DNA from: Prosthecomicrobium pneumaticum
GTDB lineage: Bacteria > Pseudomonadota > Alphaproteobacteria > Rhizobiales > Kaistiaceae
DNA length: 64,000 nucleotides
Reading direction: 5' to 3'
NCBI RefSeq assembly: GCF_014199915.1
Contig: NZ_JACHOO010000003.1
Location: 118,217 to 182,216, forward strand
In this document: positions 16,683 through 56,293 of the stretch, one piece after another
Position numbering within the stretch: position 1 is the first letter of the stretch
Layout: every line of letters starts with the position of its first letter
Notes under the pieces: generated by a model
Told to the model about the DNA's origin: nothing
Databases searched by the model: none
The model's input: the letters and a program-made list of their open reading frames with translations, nothing else
Position numbers and translations under genes: made by a program

Positions 16683-17072
16683 TCAATCGGCCCGCGCCGC
16701 GACGGCCTCGACCTCGACGACGAATTCGGGCCGGGTGAACCCGCCGACGATCATCAGCGTCGAGGCGGGCGGCGGATCGGCGACATGGCGATCGCGCACC
16801 CGCATATAGCCGGCCATGTGCTCGCGTCCCGTGACGAAGGCGTTGAGCCGGACGATATCGGCGAGCGTCATGCCGGCCGCGCCGAGAATCGCCGCGAGAT
16901 TGGCGAAGCAGAGCTCGGCCTGCGCCTCGACGCCCTCCGGGATCGTCCCGTCCGCCGCAATGCCGAGCTGGCCCGAGCAGAAGACGAGACGGCTGCCGAC
17001 CGGAACGGCGACGCCGTGACTGTAGCGGGCGAAAGGCGCGGCGATCGACGCCGGCAGGAGCGGCTGGTTCAT
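16683..17072 (-). CDS. RidA-family protein (reactive imine/enamine deaminase type)
   Basis: The 129-residue protein fits the RidA/YER057c/UK114 fold: VFCSGQLGIAADGTI, QAELCFANLAAILGAAGMTLADIVRLNAFV and TRPEFVVEVEAVA. The Arg in the last motif is the one that contacts substrate carboxylate in RidA. RidA hydrolyses reactive 2-aminoacrylate; relatives such as RutC serve pyrimidine catabolism. It is divergent from the sigma-54-headed cluster starting at 17331, which contains a deaminase-like gene, so a role in that route is possible but unproven. Confidence 0.85.
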   Translation of the reverse strand: MNQPLLPASIAAPFARYSHGVAVPVGSRLVFCSGQLGIAADGTIPEGVEAQAELCFANLAAILGAAGMTLADIVRLNAFVTGREHMAGYMRVRDRHVADPPPASTLMIVGGFTRPEFVVEVEAVAARAD

Positions 17073-17223
17073 GGCGCAACGCTAGGCAGGGCGCCGACGG
17101 ACCGCAAGACGTGTTGGAGATCGCATCCTGCCGCTTTCTTGTGCATGCGACCTCGCCTAAACTCGGGTGGCGGAGTCGGGGCATCCCGCGGCGCGGCGCG
17201 GTGGCACGCCCTCGCGGGCGCAG

Positions 17224-17245
17224 GGGCATGGTCCGCGGCATGCCC
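17224..17245. promoter_or_regulatory. Inverted repeat next to the sigma-54 promoter, candidate regulator site
   Basis: GGGCATG (17224-17230) and CATGCCC (17239-17245) are perfect complements separated by eight bases. The site ends 10 bases before the -24 element at 17256 and lies in the gap between divergent ridA and the ABC-transporter operon. It could bind a dimeric regulator; no known consensus is claimed. Confidence 0.4.
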
Positions 17246-17255
17246 GTATCGTATC

Positions 17256-17270
17256 TGGCACATGTCTTGC
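17256..17270 (+). promoter_or_regulatory. Sigma-54 (-24/-12) promoter
   Basis: TGGCAC at 17256-17261, five bases, then TTGC at 17267-17270. The GG and GC dinucleotides are exactly ten bases apart, as sigma-54 requires, and ten of the conserved positions match the TGGCAC-N5-TTGC consensus. Transcription would start near 17282, about 49 bases before the ATG of the binding-protein gene at 17331. This implies control by an enhancer-binding protein such as NtrC, and so expression under nitrogen limitation; the activator is inferred. Confidence 0.65.
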
Positions 17271-17330
17271 GAAGCTCGAACGTTTGTGGCGCGCATGGCC
17301 CCGGGGGGCAGCGCCCGAGGGAGACGACAG

Positions 17331-18344
17331 ATGAAGACGATCCGGTCCGGCCTGCTCGCGCTGACGGCGGGCCTCTTCGCGGCGGGAATGGCGGGCGAGG
17401 CGCAGGCGCTCGACGAAGTGTCGTTCGGCACCAACTGGCTCGCCCAGGCCGAGCATGGCGGCTTCTACCAGGCCGTCGCCGACGGCACCTATGAGAAATA
17501 TGGCCTGAAGGTCACCATCCTGCAGGGCGGACCGCAGGCGGCGAACCGCGCCCTGATGCTCGCCGGCAAGGCGACCTTCTTCATGGCCGGCAATTTCCTC
17601 GAGCCCTTCTCCTCGGTCGAGCAGGACATCCCGCTCGTCGAGGTCGCCGCGATCTTCCAGAAGGAGCCGCAGGTCTTCATCGTCCATCCCGACAGCGGCA
17701 TCGAGAAGTTCGAGGATCTCGCCAAGCTGCCGACGATCTTCATGGGCAAGGACCTCTATGCGTCCGGCTTCCAGTGGATGAAGTCGGCCTTCCCCGGTTT
17801 CCGCGACGAGCAGTACAAGCCCTACACCTTCAACCCGGCGCCCTTCCTCGCCGACAAGCAGTCGGCCCAGCAGGGCTACATCACCTCCGAGCCCTATGAG
17901 ATCGAGCGCCAGGGCGGCTTCAAGCCGAAGCTCTTCCTGCTCGCCGATTCCGGCTTCGACACCTATTCGACGATGATCGAGGCGAAGCAGGACTATGTCG
18001 CCGCCAACCCGGACATCGTCCAGCGCTTCGTCGATGCCTCGATCGTCGGCTGGTACACCTATCTCTACGGCGACAACAAAGCCGCCAACGACCTGATCAA
18101 GAAGGACAATCCCGAGATGACCGACGGTCAGATCGCCTTCTCGATCGCCCAGATGAAGGAATATGGCATCGTCGATTCGGGCGATGCGGAGACCGGCGGC
18201 ATCGGCTGCATGACGGATGCGCGCATCAAGTCCTTCTACTACAAGATGGTGACGGCCGGCGTCGTCAAGGCCGGGCTCGACATCTCGAAGACCTATACGA
18301 CGCAGTTCGTCTGCAAGGGCGTCGGCAAGGAGCTGAAGAAGTAG
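17331..18344 (+). CDS. ABC transporter substrate-binding protein, NMT1/THI5-like
   Basis: This periplasmic protein of 337 residues has a Sec signal peptide (MKTIRSGLLALTAGLFAAG, cleavage probably after AQA at about residue 25). The mature part begins with FGTNWLAQAEHGGFYQAVAD and YEKYGLKVTILQGGPQAANR, the pattern of NMT1/THI5-like proteins; relatives such as ThiY bind pyrimidine compounds. GAGGGAGACGACAG precedes the ATG, and a sigma-54 promoter lies 61 bases before it. It is the first gene of an importer operon followed by ATPase and permease genes. A pyrimidine-like or other nitrogenous ligand is inferred. Confidence 0.88.
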   Translation: MKTIRSGLLALTAGLFAAGMAGEAQALDEVSFGTNWLAQAEHGGFYQAVADGTYEKYGLKVTILQGGPQAANRALMLAGKATFFMAGNFLEPFSSVEQDIPLVEVAAIFQKEPQVFIVHPDSGIEKFEDLAKLPTIFMGKDLYASGFQWMKSAFPGFRDEQYKPYTFNPAPFLADKQSAQQGYITSEPYEIERQGGFKPKLFLLADSGFDTYSTMIEAKQDYVAANPDIVQRFVDASIVGWYTYLYGDNKAANDLIKKDNPEMTDGQIAFSIAQMKEYGIVDSGDAETGGIGCMTDARIKSFYYKMVTAGVVKAGLDISKTYTTQFVCKGVGKELKK

Positions 18345-18446: not shown

Positions 18447-19262
18447 GTGTCCGTGTCCCCCGCCTCGGCCCCCTCTCCGCGCGATCGGTCGATCGTCCGG
18501 CTCGAGCATGTCGCCAAGACCTTCTCGAACGGCACGGTTGCGCTCGCCGATCTCAATCTCGACGTCGCCGAGGGCGAGTTCCTCTCCCTGCTCGGGCCTT
18601 CGGGCTGCGGCAAGTCGACGGCGCTGCGCATCATCGCCGGGCTCGGCGAGCCGACCTCGGGTGCCGTCGCCTGGCCGAAGGCGATGTATGATGCGAGCGG
18701 CAAGCCGGAGGCCGAGATCGGCTTCGTCTTCCAGGAGCCGACGCTGATGCCCTGGGCGACGGTGTTCCACAATGTCTGGCTACCCCTGCGCCTGAAGGGC
18801 GTCTCGAAGGCCGCCGCCCGTACGCGGGTCGCCGAGGCGCTGGAGATGGTCGGCCTCGAGAAGTTCTCCGCCGCCTATCCGCGCGAACTGTCGGGCGGCA
18901 TGAAGATGCGCGTCTCGATCGCCCGCGCCCTCGTCACGCGGCCGCGCCTCCTCCTGATGGACGAGCCCTTCGCCGCGCTCGACGAGATCACGCGGCAGAA
19001 GCTCAACGACGATCTTCTGAAGCTCTACAAGCAGTTCGGCTTCACCGTGCTGTTCGTCACCCATTCGGTCTTCGAATCGGTGCACCTGTCGAGCCGCATC
19101 GTCGTCATGGCGGCGCGGCCCGGCCGCGTCATCGACGACATCGCGATCGAAGCCCCTTATCCGCGCGACCGCGCCTTCCGCACCTCGCCGCTCTATGCCG
19201 AATACTGCCGGCGCGTGTCGGATTCGCTCGTCGCCGCGATCGGAGCGACCGACCACCTATGA
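18447..19262 (+). CDS. ABC transporter ATP-binding protein (NitT/TauT type)
   Basis: The 271-residue ATPase drives the importer encoded by its neighbours at the cytoplasmic membrane face. Walker A GPSGCGKST is at 50-58, the Q-loop is in GFVFQEPTLMPWATV, the signature is LSGGMKMRVSIARAL, Walker B is LLLMDEPFAALDE and the H-loop is FVTHSVFES. MPWATV after the Q-loop glutamine is typical of nitrate/taurine/pyrimidine-type importers. Translation starts at GTG 18447 and its stop overlaps the permease start (ATGA at 19259-19262), which implies coupling. Confidence 0.93.
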   Translation: MSVSPASAPSPRDRSIVRLEHVAKTFSNGTVALADLNLDVAEGEFLSLLGPSGCGKSTALRIIAGLGEPTSGAVAWPKAMYDASGKPEAEIGFVFQEPTLMPWATVFHNVWLPLRLKGVSKAAARTRVAEALEMVGLEKFSAAYPRELSGGMKMRVSIARALVTRPRLLLMDEPFAALDEITRQKLNDDLLKLYKQFGFTVLFVTHSVFESVHLSSRIVVMAARPGRVIDDIAIEAPYPRDRAFRTSPLYAEYCRRVSDSLVAAIGATDHL

Positions 19263-20113
19263 GCGCCGCCGAACCCGTCGACACCGCCGTTCCGGCCGCC
19301 GCGCCGCGCCCGCCCTCGGGCCCCAGGATGACCGAGCAGGTGCTGCGCGTCATCGTGCCGATCGCCATGCTCGTCGCGCTGGTCGCGCTCTGGCACTGGT
19401 ATGTCGTCGCCTATAACGTGCCGCATTACATCCTGCCGGCGCCCGAACGGGTCGCGCAGGCGATGATCGAGGACTGGCCGACCCTGTCGGGCGCGCTCTT
19501 CGTCACGCTCAAGATCACCTTCGCCGCGCTCGCCATCGCGCTCGTCGGCGGCGTCCTCATCGCGGTCCTCCTCGCGCAGTCGAAATGGATCGAGATCGCG
19601 CTCTATCCCTATATGGTCATCCTGCAGGTGACGCCGATCGTCGCGATCGCGCCGCTGATCCTCATCTATGCGCCGACCACCCAGTCGGCGCTGCTGATCT
19701 GCGCCTGGATCGTCGCCTTCTTCCCCGTCCTGTCGAACACGACGCAGGGGCTGAAATCGACCGACCACAATCTCCTCAACCTCTTCGAGCTCTACGGCGC
19801 CTCGCGCTGGCAGACGCTGTTCCTGCTCAAGCTGCCGGCGGCGCTGCCCTATTTCCTCGTCGGCCTGCGGATCGCCGGCGGCCTCGCCCTGATCGCGGCG
19901 GTGGTCGCGGAATTTGCCGCCGGTTCGGCCGGCGCCGGCTCGGGCCTCGCCTTCCGGATTCTCGAATCGCAATACCGGCTCAACATTCCGCGCCTCTTCG
20001 CCGCGCTCATTCTTCTCTGCGCCACCGGCGTCGCGATTTTCTTCGCGACCAGTCTCGTCTCGCATCTCCTGCTGCGGAAGTGGCACGAGAGCGCCATCCG
20101 GCGGGAGAATTGA
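19259..20113 (+). CDS. ABC transporter permease (NitT/TauT type)
   Basis: The 284-residue inner-membrane protein has six or so hydrophobic segments (LRVIVPIAMLVALVALWHWY, ITFAALAIALVGGVLIAVLL, LYPYMVILQVTPIVAIAPLI and others) and the EAA-like coupling motif in ELYGASRWQTLFLLKLPAAL. It forms the channel of the importer with the preceding ATPase and binding protein. Start overlaps the ATPase stop by four bases. Confidence 0.92.
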   Translation: MSAAEPVDTAVPAAAPRPPSGPRMTEQVLRVIVPIAMLVALVALWHWYVVAYNVPHYILPAPERVAQAMIEDWPTLSGALFVTLKITFAALAIALVGGVLIAVLLAQSKWIEIALYPYMVILQVTPIVAIAPLILIYAPTTQSALLICAWIVAFFPVLSNTTQGLKSTDHNLLNLFELYGASRWQTLFLLKLPAALPYFLVGLRIAGGLALIAAVVAEFAAGSAGAGSGLAFRILESQYRLNIPRLFAALILLCATGVAIFFATSLVSHLLLRKWHESAIRREN

Positions 20114-20150: not shown

Positions 20151-21470
20151 ATGACGAAGGGCTTCGCGACCATTCCCGAGGCGGGCGCCTATGTGCTCGC
20201 CGACGCGCGGCTGCCGGCGGCGGCCGTCGAGGGCTTCGACGCGCGGGTGGTGGAAGGCCTGCTGCGAGCCGATCTCGTCGTCGAGGACGGCCGGATCGCC
20301 CGCCTGTCGCCGCCCAACAGCGAGACCGGCCTGCCGGTCGTCGATCTCGATGGCGGCCAGGTCTGGCCGGCCTTCGTCGACCTGCACACCCATCTCGACA
20401 AGGGCCATATCTGGCCGCGCGCCGCCAATCCGGACGGCAGTTTCGACGGCGCCCTCGCCGCCGTCCATGCCGACCGCGAGGCCAACTGGTCCGCCGAGGA
20501 CGTCCGCCGCCGGATGGATTTTGCGCTCCGCTGTGCCTGCGCCCACGGCACGCGCCTCATCCGCACCCATCTCGATTCGCTGCCGCCGCAGGAGACGATC
20601 TCCTGGCCGGTTTTCGCCGAGATGCGGGCGGCCTGGGCCGGCCGGATCGAGTTGCAGGCGGTGTCGCTCTTCCCCGTCGACATGGTGTTCGACGCGGCCG
20701 CCTATGACGCGATCGTCGACACGACGGCGGCGCATGGCGGCGTGCTCGGCGGCGTCACCTTCATGATCCCGGAGCTCGACGCCGCGCTCGACCGGCTGTT
20801 CGAGACCGCCGCGGCGCGCGGCCTCGATCTCGATTTCCATGTCGACGAGACGCAGGATCCCGCCGCGACCTCGCTCCGCTCGATCGCCGAGGCGGCGCTC
20901 CGCCATCGGTTCGAGGGGCGTGTCGCGGTCGGCCATTGCTGCTCGCTCGCCCGCCAGGACGAGGCCGAGGCGGCGCGCACCATCGAGCGCGTGGCGGAGG
21001 CCGGCATCACGGTGATCTCGCTGCCGATGTGCAATGTCTATCTGCAGGACCGCGCGCCCGGCCGCACGCCGCGTTCGCGCGGCGTCACGCTGCTCAAGGA
21101 GATGGCCGCGGCCGGCGTCAACACCGTCGTCGCCTCCGACAACACGCGCGATCCCTTCTACGCCTATGGCGATCTCGATCCGATGGAAGTGTTCCGCGAG
21201 GCGGTGCGGATCATCCAGCTCGACCATCCGATCGACGCCGCGCCGGCGCTCGTCACGCGCAATGCGGCGAACGCGGCGCGGCGGCCCGATCTCGGCCTCA
21301 TCCGGGCCGGCGATCCGGCCGATCTCGTTCTCTTCCGCGCCCGGCGCTGGACCGAGCTGCTCGCCCGGCCGCAGGCCGACCGCACGGTGATCCGGGCCGG
21401 ACGGGCGATCGACCGCACCCTGCCGGATCACCGCGAACTCGACGACCTCTTTGGAGACCTCGATGGCTGA
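20151..21470 (+). CDS. Cytosine-deaminase-like metal-dependent amidohydrolase
   Basis: The 439-residue protein belongs to the amidohydrolase superfamily, CodA-like branch. Metal-binding HxH is in DLHTHLDKGH (residues 79 and 81), further ligands are expected in DFHVDET and VGHCCSL, and the catalytic Asp is in VVASDNTRDPFYAYG. CodA-like enzymes hydrolytically deaminate cytosine, isoguanine or other N-heterocycles, releasing ammonia. Placement after an NMT1-type importer under a sigma-54 promoter supports a nitrogen-scavenging role. The exact substrate is not readable from sequence. It overlaps the next gene by eight bases. Confidence 0.82.
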   Translation: MTKGFATIPEAGAYVLADARLPAAAVEGFDARVVEGLLRADLVVEDGRIARLSPPNSETGLPVVDLDGGQVWPAFVDLHTHLDKGHIWPRAANPDGSFDGALAAVHADREANWSAEDVRRRMDFALRCACAHGTRLIRTHLDSLPPQETISWPVFAEMRAAWAGRIELQAVSLFPVDMVFDAAAYDAIVDTTAAHGGVLGGVTFMIPELDAALDRLFETAAARGLDLDFHVDETQDPAATSLRSIAEAALRHRFEGRVAVGHCCSLARQDEAEAARTIERVAEAGITVISLPMCNVYLQDRAPGRTPRSRGVTLLKEMAAAGVNTVVASDNTRDPFYAYGDLDPMEVFREAVRIIQLDHPIDAAPALVTRNAANAARRPDLGLIRAGDPADLVLFRARRWTELLARPQADRTVIRAGRAIDRTLPDHRELDDLFGDLDG

Positions 21471-22863
21471 TCTCGCCAAGCTCAAGGCCGACCTCGCCGG
21501 CATCGCCATCGAGGACAATCCGGCGATCGTGAAGCAGAAGAGCCGCGATTTCTTCTGGTATTCGCCGGTCCTGAAGCGCCAGCTCGACCATGTCGTCGGC
21601 GATCTCGTCGTCACGCCGAAGGACGAGGCGGAGGTGATCCGCGTCCTCGCCGCCGCTCATGCGCACGGCGTCGCCGTCACGCCGCGTGGCGCCGGCACCG
21701 GCAATTACGGCCAGGCCATGCCGCTCGCCGGCGGCATCGTGCTCAACCTCGCCGAGATGAACAAGGTCACCGCGATCGCGCCCGGCCGCGTCGTCGCCGA
21801 GCCCGGCGTCATCATGGCGAAGCTCGACGCCGAGACGCGCGCCCATTCGGGCCAGGAATTGCGGCTGCATCCCTCGACCGCCAACACCGCCTCCGTCGGC
21901 GGCTTCGTCGCCGGCGGCTCGGGCGGCGTCGGCTCGATCCGCTGGGGGGGCCTGCGCGATCTCGGCAATGTCATCCGCCTGCGCATCGTCACCATGGAGG
22001 CGAGCCCGCGCACGCTCGAACTGAGCCGGTTCGACCTGCACAAGGTCAGCCACGCCTATGGCACCAACGGCATCATCACCGAGGTCGAGATGCCGCTCGC
22101 TCCGGCCTATGACTGGGTCGACGTGCTGGTCGGCTTCGACGACTGGATGGATGCGGTGCGCTATGCCGATGCGCTCGGCAATGAGGACGGCATCCTGACC
22201 AAGGAGATCGCCACCGTGGCGGCGCCGGCGCCGTTCGATTACTTCCTCCGCCACCAGAAATTCCTGAAGCGCGAGCAGTCGGTCGTCATCGTGATGGTGG
22301 CGCCGCATTCGCTCGACGCCTTCCTCGCCTTCACCGGCCGGGAGAAGGGCGAGATCGTCTTCCGCGCCGATACGGCGCAGGATCTGAAGGGCCTGCCGCC
22401 CGCCTTCGAGCTCGCCTGGAATCACACGACGCTGCGGGCGCTGCGCGTCGACCCGTCGATCACCTATCTCCAGGTCATGTATCCCTTCCCGGATCACCAG
22501 AAGAAGGTCGCCCGGATGACCGAATTGCTGGGAGACGAGGTGCCCGGCCATCTCGAATTCGTCCGCTTCGACGGCAAGGTCATCCCGATGGGCCTGCCGA
22601 TGGTGCGCTTCTCGACCGAGGAGCGGCTCGACGAGATCATCCGCATCCACGAGGAAGAGGGCTGCCCGATCTTCAACCCCCACCGCTATACGCTCGAGGA
22701 AGGCGGCATGAAGCAGACCGACGACGTCCAGCTCGCCTTCAAGCGCGAGGCGGATCCGGACGGCCTGCTCAACCCGGGCAAGATGATCGCCTGGGAGGAC
22801 CCGAACTTCGACTACCGCGCGAAGAAGACGTTTCTCTTCCCCGGCCTGCAGGCGGCGGGATGA
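21463..22863 (+). CDS. FAD-binding oxidase, glycolate/D-lactate oxidase (VAO/PCMH) type
   Basis: The 466-residue flavoenzyme has the PCMH FAD-binding domain at about 45-215 (VVTPKDEAEVIRVLAAAHAHG, VTPRGAGTGNYGQAMPLAGG, VAEPGV, STANTASVGGFVAGGSGGVG) and the FAD-linked oxidase C-terminal domain ending in DPDGLLNPGKMIAW. Members oxidise 2-hydroxy acids or other alcohol/amine substrates. GGAGA at 21453-21457 is well spaced for ATG 21463, which lies inside the end of the amidohydrolase gene, so the two are likely translationally coupled and serve one pathway. Confidence 0.87.
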   Translation: MADLAKLKADLAGIAIEDNPAIVKQKSRDFFWYSPVLKRQLDHVVGDLVVTPKDEAEVIRVLAAAHAHGVAVTPRGAGTGNYGQAMPLAGGIVLNLAEMNKVTAIAPGRVVAEPGVIMAKLDAETRAHSGQELRLHPSTANTASVGGFVAGGSGGVGSIRWGGLRDLGNVIRLRIVTMEASPRTLELSRFDLHKVSHAYGTNGIITEVEMPLAPAYDWVDVLVGFDDWMDAVRYADALGNEDGILTKEIATVAAPAPFDYFLRHQKFLKREQSVVIVMVAPHSLDAFLAFTGREKGEIVFRADTAQDLKGLPPAFELAWNHTTLRALRVDPSITYLQVMYPFPDHQKKVARMTELLGDEVPGHLEFVRFDGKVIPMGLPMVRFSTEERLDEIIRIHEEEGCPIFNPHRYTLEEGGMKQTDDVQLAFKREADPDGLLNPGKMIAWEDPNFDYRAKKTFLFPGLQAAG

Positions 22864-23040: not shown

Positions 23041-23622
23041 ATGCGCGTGCTCGTTCTCTTCGCCCATCCGGTCGAGACATCCTTCGGCGCGGCGCTGCAT
23101 CGGACCGTCGTCGCGGCGCTCGAAAAGGCCGGGCACATGGTGGACGATGTCGACCTCTATGCCGAGGATTTCGACCCGCGCCTGTCGCGGGCGGAGCGGC
23201 TCGCCTATCACGACGTCGATGCCGATCGATCGGCGGTCGCGCCCTATATCGAGAAGCTGAAGGCCGCCGAGGCGCTGGTGCTCGTCACGCCGGTGTGGAA
23301 TTTCGGCTGGCCGGCCATCCTCAAGGGCTTCTTCGACCGGGTCTTCCTGCCCGGCGTGTCGTTCCGCATCGAGAACGGCAAGGTGAAGCCGACGCTGCGC
23401 CATATCCGCAAGCTCGCCGCCGTCGTCACCTATGGCGGCACGCGCTGGCGGGCCCTGGCGATCGGCGACCCGCCGCGCAAGATCGTCACGCGGGTGCTGC
23501 GCGTCCAGATCAAGCCCGGCGCGCCGCTTTCCTATCTGGCGCTCTACGACATGAACCGCCGCAGCGACGCCGAGCGGGCCGCCTTTCTCGACGATGTCCG
23601 GCGGCGGATGGAAGCCTTCTGA
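23041..23622 (+). CDS. NAD(P)H dehydrogenase (quinone)-type flavodoxin-fold oxidoreductase, copy 1
   Basis: The 193-residue protein has the flavodoxin-like fold of NQO1/MdaB/KefF-type proteins: VLVLFAHPVETSFGAALH binds FMN/FAD phosphate, and LVLVTPVWNFGWPAILKGFFDRVF is the family's second cofactor motif. Such enzymes reduce quinones or other acceptors with NAD(P)H. It begins at ATG 23041 right after the REP pair and shares its stop with the start of a related gene (TGATG at 23620-23624), so the two are coupled. Function in the cluster may be to reduce a flavin or quinone partner. Confidence 0.85.
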   Translation: MRVLVLFAHPVETSFGAALHRTVVAALEKAGHMVDDVDLYAEDFDPRLSRAERLAYHDVDADRSAVAPYIEKLKAAEALVLVTPVWNFGWPAILKGFFDRVFLPGVSFRIENGKVKPTLRHIRKLAAVVTYGGTRWRALAIGDPPRKIVTRVLRVQIKPGAPLSYLALYDMNRRSDAERAAFLDDVRRRMEAF

Positions 23623-24209
23623 TGCGGACCCTCGTCGTTTACGCCCATCCTGTGCCGGAGAGCTTCAACGCCGCCGTTCGCGACACGGTGGTGGAGAGCC
23701 TGTCGGGTGCCGGCCACGAGGTGCGGCTCCTCGATCTCTACGCCTCGGGCTTCGATCCGGTGATGAGCGCGGAGGAACGGCGGCTCTATCACGAGCGGGA
23801 CGTCAATGTCCGGCCGGTCGCCGAGCACGTCGCGCTCATTCAGTGGGCGGAGGCGATGGTGTTCGTGTACCCGACCTGGTGGTACGGGCCGCCGGCCATG
23901 CTGAAGGGCTGGCTCGAACGGGTCTGGGTGCCGCACGTCACCTTCATCATGCCGACCGAGACGACCGGCATCCGGCCGAACATGCAGCACGTCCGCCGGC
24001 TCGCCGTGGTGACGACCTGCGGGGCGTCCTGGCTGATGTCGAAATTCGTCGGCGAGCCGGGCCGCAAGATCATCCTGCGCGGCATAAGATTGCTCTGCCA
24101 CCCCCGTTGTTCCACCCGTTATCTCGCCCATTACAAGATGGACACATCGACGAAAAAGAGCAGAGCGGCCTATCTCGCCAAGGTCGCGAAGGCGATGGCC
24201 CGGCTCTAG
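23622..24209 (+). CDS. NAD(P)H dehydrogenase (quinone)-type flavodoxin-fold oxidoreductase, copy 2
   Basis: The 195-residue protein is a diverged paralogue of the gene before it: both open with a V-x-AHPV-x-ESF-type cofactor loop (here TLVVYAHPVPESFNAA) and share D-LYA-x-x-FDP and a WW/WNFG-like cofactor motif (here VYPTWWYGPPAMLKGWLERV). Two coupled members suggest a heteromeric enzyme or two linked reduction steps. It ends 60 bases before the gamma-glutamyltransferase gene. Confidence 0.83.
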   Translation: MRTLVVYAHPVPESFNAAVRDTVVESLSGAGHEVRLLDLYASGFDPVMSAEERRLYHERDVNVRPVAEHVALIQWAEAMVFVYPTWWYGPPAMLKGWLERVWVPHVTFIMPTETTGIRPNMQHVRRLAVVTTCGASWLMSKFVGEPGRKIILRGIRLLCHPRCSTRYLAHYKMDTSTKKSRAAYLAKVAKAMARL

Positions 24210-24269: not shown

Positions 24270-25859
24270 ATGAGCGAGACGGTGGTCGGCGAAAAGGGCA
24301 TGGTGGTGGCGCCGCACCGGGCGGCGGCCGAGGCCGGCGCGGCGATCCTGCGCGAGGGCGGCAATGCCGTCGAGGCGATGCTCGCCGCGGCGGCGACGAT
24401 CGCCGTCGTCTATCCGCACATGAACGGCATCGGCGGCGACGGCTTCTGGCTGATCCGCGAGCCCGGCCGCACGCCGCGCTATATCGAGGCCTGCGGCGCG
24501 GCGGGCTCGGGCGCGACGATCGGCGCCTATCGCGAGAAGGGCCATGACCGGGTGCCGACCCGCGGACCCGACGCCGCGCTGACGGTCGCCGGCGCGGTGT
24601 CCGGCTGGGCGCTCGCCCATCAGTTCGCCGCGAGCCTCGGCGGCCGCTTCGATCGTCGCACGCTCGTCGAGGCGGCGATCGGCCATGCCCGGGCGGGCGT
24701 CGCGGTGTCGCGCTCGCAGGCCCGCATGACCGCCGAGCACGAGGCCGAGCTCGCGCCCGTGCCGGGCTTCGCCGCGCAGTTCATGCCGGGCGGCAAGGCG
24801 CCGGCGACCGGCGACGCGATGCGCTTCGAGCGGCTCGCCGACACGCTCGACCAGCTCGCGCACGAGGGCTTCGAGGATTTCTACCGCGGCGATGTCGGCG
24901 CGACGATCGCCGCCGATCTCGCAGAGGCGGGCGCCCCGGTGACGCGCGCCGATCTCGAACGGCAGGAGGCGCGCTTCCGCGAGCCGCTGTCGCTCAGAAT
25001 AGCCGGCGCGACGCTCTACAACGCCCCGCCGCCGACCCAAGGGGCGGCCTCGCTGATGATCCTCGGCCTGTTCGAGCGGCTCGGCGTGGCGCGCGGCGAG
25101 GGGTTCGAGCATGTCCACGGCCTCGTCGAGGCGACCAAGCGCGCCTTCCAGTTCCGCGACGCGCGGATCACCGATCCGGTCTTCGCCGGCGATCTCGCGC
25201 CCTATCTTTCCGACCGGGCGCTCGAGCGCGAGGCGGCGCAGATCGACATGCGCCGGGCCGCCGCGCTCGGCGGAGGCGGGGCGAAGGGCGATACGGTCTG
25301 GCTCGGCGCGATCGACGCCTCGGGCCTCGCCGTCTCCTATATCCAGTCGATCTTTTGGGAGTTCGGCTCCGGCCTCACCTTGCCGCGGACCGGCATCGTC
25401 TGGCAGAACCGCGGCGCGAGCTTCTCGCTCGATCCCCGCGCGCTCAATCCGCTCGAACCGGGCCGCAAGCCCTTCCACACGCTCAACCCGCCGCTCGCCC
25501 GCTTCGACGACGGGCGGGTGATGAGCTACGGCACGATGGGCGGCGACGGGCAGCCGCAATTCCAGGCGGCGCTGTTCACCCGCCATGTCCGCTTCGGCAT
25601 GGACCTCGCGGAAGCGATCGCCGCACCGCGCTGGCTGTGGGGCAAGACCTGGGGGGCGGACGCCGCGGGGCTCAGGGTCGAATCCCGGCTCGACGCCGAT
25701 CTGGTGCGCGATCTCGAGCGGGCCGGCCATCGCGTCGAGGTGCTCGCCGAGCCCTATGCCGATCTGATGGGCCATGCCGGCGCGATCGTGCGGCGGGCCG
25801 ACGGCCGGCTGTTCGGCGCCTCCGATCCGCGCTCGGACGGGGCGGCCGTCGCCGGCTGA
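24270..25859 (+). CDS. Gamma-glutamyltransferase family Ntn-hydrolase
   Basis: The 529-residue protein belongs to the GGT family, which matures by self-cleavage and hydrolyses or transfers gamma-glutamyl groups. The N-terminal VAPHRAAAEAGAAILREGGN and NGIGGDGFWLI are typical, and the expected nucleophile Thr342 lies in KGDTVWLGAIDASGLAVSYI. The canonical DTTH is DTVW here, so the second Thr is replaced by Val, pointing to a divergent subgroup with changed specificity. No signal peptide is visible, so it is probably cytoplasmic, unlike classical periplasmic GGT. The amidase gene follows. Confidence 0.82.
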   Translation: MSETVVGEKGMVVAPHRAAAEAGAAILREGGNAVEAMLAAAATIAVVYPHMNGIGGDGFWLIREPGRTPRYIEACGAAGSGATIGAYREKGHDRVPTRGPDAALTVAGAVSGWALAHQFAASLGGRFDRRTLVEAAIGHARAGVAVSRSQARMTAEHEAELAPVPGFAAQFMPGGKAPATGDAMRFERLADTLDQLAHEGFEDFYRGDVGATIAADLAEAGAPVTRADLERQEARFREPLSLRIAGATLYNAPPPTQGAASLMILGLFERLGVARGEGFEHVHGLVEATKRAFQFRDARITDPVFAGDLAPYLSDRALEREAAQIDMRRAAALGGGGAKGDTVWLGAIDASGLAVSYIQSIFWEFGSGLTLPRTGIVWQNRGASFSLDPRALNPLEPGRKPFHTLNPPLARFDDGRVMSYGTMGGDGQPQFQAALFTRHVRFGMDLAEAIAAPRWLWGKTWGADAAGLRVESRLDADLVRDLERAGHRVEVLAEPYADLMGHAGAIVRRADGRLFGASDPRSDGAAVAG

Positions 25860-25981
25860 ACGGCGGAACGCAGCGTCGCATTGCAAAAAGAGGCGATCTC
25901 CTGCACTTTCCCGCGGCAATCTGCTCGATTCCCGGCAGACCGTCGCTATCCGCCGGCCTATCGGCGGCAACCGTGGACGCC

Positions 25982-27163
25982 ATGCTGCTCAGAGACGATC
26001 CCGTCCATGCCTTCGTCGACTATCCCGCCGTCGAAGTGCCGAATGCCCCCTCCGGTCCGCTCTCCGGGGCGACGCTCGCCGTCAAGGACCTCTACGACGT
26101 CGCCGGCTATCCGACCGGCGGCGGCCATCCGCTCGTCCGCGCCGAAAGCGGCGTGAAGAGCGCGAACGCGCCGGCCGTCCAGGCGCTGCTCGATGCCGGT
26201 GCCCGTTTCGTGGGCAAGACCCATACCGACGAGATGGCCTATTCGCTGACCGGCGAGAATTTTCACTACGGCTCGCCGACCAATCCCAAGGCGCCCGGCC
26301 GGATCACCGGCGGCTCGTCCTCCGGCTCGGCGGCGGCCGTCGCGGCCGGTCTCGCCGATATCGCGCTCGGCAGCGACACCGGCGGCTCGGTGCGCACGCC
26401 CGCCTCGTTCTGCGGCGTGATCGGGCTCCGGCCGACGCATGGCCGGATCGACATTTCCCGCGTCCAGCCGCTCGCCGCCTCGCTCGACACCGTCGGCTGG
26501 TTCACCCGCGAGATCGACCTCTTCGCGAAGGTCGGCGACGTGCTTCTCGGCGCGGATGCCGACGGACCGCCGCTCCGCCGGATGATGACGGCCGACGACG
26601 TGCACGCGCTCCTCTCCGGCGACGACGAGGATGCGGTGGTGCGCACCGCCGTCTCGCGCGTCGCCGAGCATCTCGATCCGCAGGGCGCCGTCACGCTGTC
26701 GGAGGAGGGGCTGTTCTCCTGGTTCATGACCTTCCGCACCATCCAGGCCTATGAGGCCTGGCAGGCGCACGGCGCCTGGATCCGCGATCGCCAGCCGCTG
26801 CTCGGCCCCGGCGTGCGCGAGCGCTTCGAATGGGCGAGCCGGGTCACCGAGGACGACATCGCCGCCGCAAGGGAGCGCCGCTCGGCGATCCGGACCCGCA
26901 TGCGCGGCCTGCTCGGCGAGGATGGCGTGCTCGTCGTGCCGACCGTGCCCGGCCCGGCGCCGGAACTCGGCATGCAGGGCGAGGCGCTCGAATCCTATCG
27001 CAACCGTTGCCTGTCGATGCTCTGCGGCGCCGGCCTCGCCGGTCTGCCGCAGCTCTCCATGCCGCTCGCCGAGGTCGCCGGCCTGCCGCTCGGCGTGTCG
27101 CTGATCGGTCCGCCCGGCCGCGACCGTGCGCTCATCGCGATCGCCGAACGGGTGATGGGGTAG
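25982..27163 (+). CDS. Amidase-signature family amidohydrolase
   Basis: The 393-residue enzyme has the Ser-cisSer-Lys triad of the amidase signature family: Lys35 in LAVKDLYDVAGYPT, the cis-Ser in ITGGSSSGSAAAVAAG and the nucleophile Ser in GSDTGGSVRTPASFCGVIGLR. Substrates range from indoleacetamide to allophanate and are not predictable here. It probably hydrolyses an amide late in the pathway encoded upstream, releasing ammonia. ATG 25982 is preferred; a GTG nine bases earlier is possible. The gap of 122 bases to the preceding gene shows no other coding sequence. Confidence 0.87.
   Translation: MLLRDDPVHAFVDYPAVEVPNAPSGPLSGATLAVKDLYDVAGYPTGGGHPLVRAESGVKSANAPAVQALLDAGARFVGKTHTDEMAYSLTGENFHYGSPTNPKAPGRITGGSSSGSAAAVAAGLADIALGSDTGGSVRTPASFCGVIGLRPTHGRIDISRVQPLAASLDTVGWFTREIDLFAKVGDVLLGADADGPPLRRMMTADDVHALLSGDDEDAVVRTAVSRVAEHLDPQGAVTLSEEGLFSWFMTFRTIQAYEAWQAHGAWIRDRQPLLGPGVRERFEWASRVTEDDIAAARERRSAIRTRMRGLLGEDGVLVVPTVPGPAPELGMQGEALESYRNRCLSMLCGAGLAGLPQLSMPLAEVAGLPLGVSLIGPPGRDRALIAIAERVMG

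Positions 27164-54784: not shown

Positions 54785-56293
<1,509 letters not shown>

Follow-up and report, generated by a model that had tools for sequence, protein, structure and literature searches.

The Rut pyrimidine-utilisation operon of E. coli is nitrogen-controlled, and glnBA and nitrogen-transporter genes furnish a second type of system close to the locus described here, with RpoN promoters and NtrC enhancers. The sigma-54 consensus is given as TGGCACN5-7TTGCT in the available portion of one source (PMC12316311). According to the accessible part of another report, Caulobacter NtrC binds glnBA directly and lacks GAFTGA (PMC10274813), and the available text of a third describes NtrC regulons as having a small core to which further members are added by taxon, nitrate and urea ABC transporters being examples (PMC5343134). 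For folate breakdown, Variovorax sp. F1 is described, in the part of the paper at hand, as degrading folic acid with carboxypeptidase G plus a pterin deaminase (PMC9513972). Within the literature searched (titles and the starts of abstracts, most subscription papers lying outside it), nothing was found that links the breakdown of folate or pterins to RpoN or NtrC; one paper mentions RpoN many times and folate once (PMC5979394).

Here we analysed 64,000 nucleotides of Prosthecomicrobium pneumaticum DNA (the window), in which an ABC-importer operon follows a −24/−12 element. Taking the three parts together, we consider it likely that the element is a working RpoN promoter, that NtrC acts at a conserved block above it, and that the operon handles pterin or folate fragments under nitrogen limitation. 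The promoter mechanism itself is ordinary, with a standard −24/−12 element. To this the analysis adds the conservation of the element, an enhancer-like block above it, a shortlist of activators, the placement of exact sites at ABC-transporter genes and a more specific guess as to the substrate.

Results

The −24/−12 element and the genes behind it

An earlier note, made on the sequence alone, had pointed to a well-formed −24/−12 promoter with exact GG-N10-GC spacing, 61 bases before the importer ATG and the sole such match noticed in the window. Read directly, TGGCACATGTCTTGC is an exact TGGCAC-N5-TTGC match, with GG at 17257-17258 and GC at 17269-17270 and exactly 10 nt between them. The distance also holds, as 60 nt lie between the element and the ATG at 17331, and 61 is reached by counting to the A. 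A scan of both strands found no further exact match in the window and three other places with one mismatch. Taking 17270 as −12 puts the predicted +1 at 17282, in agreement with the note. The base after the −12 is G, neither A nor T, which counts against our preferred explanation.

The genes of the putative operon are listed with the other features in Table 1. The open frame of the importer extends back to 16785; a more upstream start was set aside because several orthologues align from residue 1. A riboswitch in the leader was rejected on Rfam searches, in which nothing in the window reached the gathering score and 17060-17420 gave no match at E up to 1. Among 40 orthologous loci, the RidA gene is upstream of the importer and divergent in 32, and the FAD enzyme is downstream of it in 35. 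Beyond the cluster, a gamma-glutamyltransferase (24270-25859) and then an amidase-like frame (25981-27163) follow on the plus strand. No gamma-glutamyltransferase is among the matches listed for the 40 orthologous loci, and it is speculation on our part that this enzyme might act on folate gamma-glutamyl tails.

Table 1. Promoter features and genes of the importer locus (window coordinates)
Feature	Position	Strand	Basis
Sigma-54 −24/−12 element TGGCACATGTCTTGC, TGGCAC-N5-TTGC	17256..17270	+	exact match; orthologous loci
Predicted transcription start	17282..17282	+	solely from −12 spacing
Enhancer-like block TGCCGCTTTCTTGTGCA, TGC-N11-GCA, candidate NtrC-type upstream activating site	17129..17145	+	alignment, matrix
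Second conserved stretch GCCTAAA	17155..17161	+	9 nt after block; alignment
RidA-family protein, divergent from importer	16683..17072	-	PF01042
NMT1/THI5-type ABC substrate-binding protein	17331..18344	+	PF09084
ABC transporter ATPase	18447..19262	+	PF00005
ABC transporter permease	19259..20113	+	PF00528
Cytosine-deaminase-type amidohydrolase	20151..21470	+	NF005759 652.8 bits, cut-off 403; PDB 1k6w E 1.6e-31
FAD-dependent oxygenase close to PDB 6v42	21466..22863	+	phmmer E 5.1e-221
Flavodoxin_2 NAD(P)H oxidoreductase, possible flavin supplier	23041..23622	+	PF02525
Second Flavodoxin_2 oxidoreductase	23622..24209	+	PF02525

Conservation at orthologous loci

The importer protein had a match at E<=0.001 in 89 of 121 genomes. 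As a conservation set we used 40 high-scoring loci from 39 genomes, each scored by its best agreement with the 10 fixed positions in the 300 nt upstream. An element with at least 9/10 lies in that stretch at 25 of the 40 loci, in 13 genera and 7 families; the loci are related by descent, so that such counts are not independent trials. By comparison, 500 shuffled patterns averaged 0.43 loci with a maximum of 5/40, the antisense strand gave 3/40, and random 300-mers from the same loci reached 9/10 in 23 of 3685 cases. The element persists at ATG distances anywhere between 54 and 215 nt, and TGGCA(C/T)-N5-TTGCG is found in 10/10 loci of the genus richest in the set. A first scan of the 30 best loci, the window's own included, had given 25/30 at 9/10. 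Twenty genomes of the 40-locus set were already in that scan; among the nine loci found in the first scan only (L048, L051, L054, L055, L057, L061, L065, L068, L069), six have at least 9/10.

We also looked at named Hyphomicrobiales loci. Among the best 80 of 581, which overlap partly with the other genome set, 11 reach 9/10, compared with 33/4358 random stretches. Positives include Pannonibacter (2), Tepidamorphus, Faunimonas, Inquilinus, Nitratireductor, Chelatococcus and a Mycobacterium-labelled contig, and three of the 11 (L150, L158, L178) look like chance by their place or sequence. The labelled contig (L165, Mycobacterium sp. KBS0706) carries an alphaproteobacterial cluster whose site is nearly identical to that of Inquilinus (L177), and its label is probably wrong. 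Rhizobium, Bradyrhizobium, Devosia and Ancylobacter loci among the same 80 are mostly without the element.

The element is thus absent from 15/40 orthologous and 69/80 of these named loci, though rpoN was found in 119 of 121 relatives. This indicates that the importer gene can do without the element and that the wiring is limited to part of the order; it also made a phyletic contrast by rpoN presence useless. The named loci without the element must use something else, and a MarR gene stands beside the cluster in many loci. Both observations would suit an operon transcribed mainly from a sigma-70 promoter under MarR or another local regulator, with the −24/−12 match secondary. We hold this to be quite improbable here, given how far the element exceeds background across 13 genera and given the conserved block upstream. 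Six Bradyrhizobium loci in which the RpoN element is missing (L199, L203, L208, L209, L216, L219) have in common a TTTGTCACGTAATTTG-like stretch 99-131 nt upstream of the importer, and four other loci (L163, L172, L174, L175) share the stretch GCGCACGAATTTTG; these are possibly sites of another regulator.

Chance expectation and sites elsewhere in the genome

Under a first-order Markov model, the two strands of the window should hold about 0.026 and 0.022 exact matches, and the coding strand of the 258-nt gap with the element about 1e-4. Controls temper the counts. The reversed pattern also gives one exact match in the window, and up to two mismatches the pattern has 29 matches there versus 43 from shuffles. 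The whole genome holds 7 exact matches against about 3.5 expected; once one mismatch is allowed, the 128 matches of the pattern fall below the 260 of its reversed control, and genome-wide counts were for this reason rejected as proof. Counts thus prove nothing alone, and placement and cross-species conservation carry the weight. That the element arose by chance in a GC-rich gap between genes, a reading that can draw on the small genome-wide excess, is rendered practically negligible by the expectation for this gap and strand, and is contradicted by the recurrence of the element at orthologous loci.

Placement of the exact sites follows a pattern. ABC-transporter genes lie behind six of the seven, which begin 25-92 nt before the open frame, and the seventh is inside reading frames. 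The partners are this importer; a second binding protein of the NMT1 type; a Bmp/PnrA-like one, with a carbon-nitrogen hydrolase farther downstream; two systems that combine TOBE_2 ATPases with importer-type permeases; and a single ABC ATPase. The five transporter gene sets other than the present one (L224, L225, L226, L227, L228) are directly behind their sites. At two of these sites the predicted transcript would begin close to or after the first start codon, implying that the true start is further down. Judged from sequence and placement, the exact TGGCAC-N5-TTGC sites of this genome form an apparent RpoN regulon of transporters.

Thirty of the 128 sites that have no more than one mismatch were inspected, nine of them closely. 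One of the 23 inspected one-mismatch sites is 79 nt before glnB. A further one-mismatch site (L011:1501-1515, TGGCACGGCATTTGT) is 52 nt before a frame that was taken, by eye, for an isochorismatase-family hydrolase.

A conserved block above the promoter

Alignment of the upstream regions revealed a block pattern, TGCCKCTWTNNTGNGCA, some 100 nt upstream of the −24; the block in the window is 110 nt above the promoter element. The genome has two exact matches to this pattern, 17129-17145 included, and one match with one mismatch. A block matrix was built from 16 training sequences, taken from loci with both the element and TGC-N11-GCA, and was scored leave-one-out, calls being made at p<0.001 against a null of 2182 stretches. 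Of the 26 loci that have the element (window included), 19 gave a block call, at 77-127 nt above the −24, and of the 15 that lack it one did, a contrast that is flattered because the training loci were picked among those with the element. Split accordingly, 15/16 training loci, 4/10 other loci with the element and 1/15 loci without it pass. The weaker contrast outside the training loci slightly lowers our confidence in the preferred explanation. A second conserved stretch follows the block (Table 1), with CCTA or CATA 8-11 nt after the block in many loci.

NtrC-type sites have the consensus TGCACC-N5-GGTGCA, which the block fits at 9 of 12 positions. In the own genome, glnB has TGGCACGGAGCCTGC plus a TGCACCAAGAATGTGCA site, the latter 121 nt above its one-mismatch promoter site and followed by GCCTAA. 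When a matrix of the block core was run on 30 glnB upstream regions, nine had a match at p<0.01 (0.3 expected; 0/30 on the reverse strand), and all nine are 192-211 nt before the glnB start, above glnB's own −24/−12; the other 21 of the 30 upstream regions have no core match at p<0.01. The longer, 38-column matrix is weaker on glnB, at 5/30 with 1/30 on the reverse strand. TGC-N11-GCA itself occurs upstream of glnB in 10/30 loci, in four of them 86-121 nt above the −24. A link of the block to glnB is thus suggestive.

RpoN and its candidate activators

The genome has one rpoN (a single PF04552 match, 236.6 bits). Sigma54_activat (PF00158) matches eight proteins, four of them strongly and the other four weakly (21.6-27.1 bits). 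Two of the strong ones pass NCBIfam models for NtrC (722 bits, cut-off 559) and NtrX (753 bits, cut-off 600); for the activator at C2:454938-456428 the best model is LuxO, with a score below the cut-off. Among the four strong ones, GAFTGA is kept only in NtrC and in the C2:454938-456428 protein. The window itself encodes a response-regulator-type protein of the sigma-54 activator family (54785-56293, plus strand) without GAFTGA, which is unlikely to act on RpoN promoters. This protein and NtrX were set aside as regulators, both being without GAFTGA. A phyletic contrast by the second GAFTGA activator was uninformative, because at the chosen cut-off every one of the 121 genomes had a match to some activator.

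The LuxO-like response regulator is the sole other GAFTGA bearer among the strong activators and has close homologues in many relatives. It could drive an RpoN-dependent promoter in place of NtrC, and the imperfect fit of the block to the NtrC consensus speaks in its favour. We consider this unlikely, as the block core recurs at glnB and glnBA is an NtrC target in Caulobacter, as far as the available text of PMC10274813 goes. It is further disfavoured in that the 40 cluster loci searched held no gene related to any of these four proteins. NtrC would accordingly be the best candidate for activator of the importer promoter.

The earlier note had placed the cluster under RpoN and an activator, naming neither that activator nor a substrate. 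Conservation of the element at orthologues, the rpoN gene and the enhancer-like block above the promoter all bear this out, so that RpoN control of the operon, probably through NtrC, appears well supported.

Pterin, folate or another heterocycle

The oxygenase of the operon is 68% identical to PDB 6v42 over 461 columns (TM 0.94); a second aligner gave Z 49.7, rmsd 2.1, 459 aligned and 62% identity. Its alignment-based model (pLDDT 81) used 33 of 48 usable named loci. The folate label of 6v42 rests on the title of the PDB entry, 'Crystal structure of the flavin oxygenase with cofactor bound involved in folate catabolism'; no paper naming 6v42 or 6v43 was found in the literature searched, which left out most subscription papers.

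Relatives add a further enzyme. In 22 of 120 relatives' loci another deaminase lies on the RidA side within the fetched stretch. Both proteins compared with the 8-oxoguanine deaminase model pass it, at 646 and 661 bits (cut-off 532), and one of the RidA-side deaminases matches PDB 2paj (E 1e-71), which we take to be isoxanthopterin deaminase. By our own tally, the −24/−12 element is present in 21/22 loci with the 8-oxoguanine-deaminase-type gene versus 15/98 others, the loci being related and some cut by contig ends. In the window no such deaminase is beside RidA, and two genes passing the model are elsewhere in the genome. The operon deaminase, the 6v42-like oxygenase and the RidA-side deaminases point to a pterin or folate-derived nitrogen source, and scavenging of such a compound is our best guess for the operon.

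NMT1/THI5 binding proteins often take pyrimidine precursors. The operon deaminase passes a cytosine deaminase model, and the partner deaminase of relatives passes that for 8-oxoguanine deaminase. RpoN and NtrC could thus be right and the substrate a pyrimidine or other heterocycle, a reading compatible with the promoter part of our explanation. We find it quite possible, though less likely than not, given the full-length identity of the oxygenase to 6v42 and a drop to 22% for the next closest solved structures.

That the operon serves nitrogen scavenging, as the earlier note had also proposed, gains support from three sides: 1) ABC-transporter genes are preceded by six of the seven exact sites; 2) the block core recurs at glnB in 9/30 loci; and 3) the operon holds a deaminase together with a flavin oxygenase of the folate-catabolism type.

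Discussion

In the mechanism that we favour, nitrogen limitation would lead phosphorylated NtrC to bind the TGC-N11-GCA block at 17129-17145 and, using ATP, to open the RNA polymerase-sigma-54 complex at the promoter at 17256-17270. The resulting transcript, beginning near 17282, would cover the NMT1-type ABC importer, the amidohydrolase, the flavin oxygenase and the two flavodoxin-type reductases. The cell would then take up a heterocycle rich in nitrogen, with a pterin or a piece of folate as the likeliest candidate, and free nitrogen from it.

A suspected promoter thereby becomes a testable statement about a regulon, in which exact RpoN sites mark ABC-transporter genes in the genome and one such operon looks like a pathway that takes nitrogen from vitamin-type rings. 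If true, turnover of environmental pterins and folates would be nitrogen-controlled in these bacteria. More broadly, and tentatively, at a little below even confidence, we propose that in part of the Hyphomicrobiales the uptake and breakdown of pterin or folate fragments is nitrogen scavenging switched by RpoN and NtrC, with this wiring occurring alongside an adjoining 8-oxoguanine-deaminase-type gene, and that most Rhizobium, Bradyrhizobium and Devosia loci are wired differently.

Compared with known systems, the locus resembles the Rut operon in having a flavin enzyme and a RidA-family protein and, probably, in the release of nitrogen from a heterocycle under nitrogen control. It differs in that its flavin enzyme is of the FAD_binding_4 type and uptake is by an ABC importer; among the matches listed for Rut models on ten proteins, only RutC appears, weakly, on the RidA protein (23.7 bits, cut-off 169.1). 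With Variovorax sp. F1 it would share deamination of the pterin ring, and the main text of that paper, as far as available, is without 'FAD', 'ABC transporter', 'gene cluster' or 'amidohydrolase' (PMC9513972). It is also like proteobacterial RpoN/NtrC systems of the glnBA and nitrogen-transporter type, in TGGCAC-N5-TTGC with GG-N10-GC spacing, in a distal TGC-N11-GCA block and in putative nitrogen-uptake genes downstream. In contrast to NtrC enhancers the left half-site is weak here, TGCCGC standing in place of TGCACC, and in contrast to glnBA-type systems the target appears to be an operon of the pterin/folate-catabolic type.
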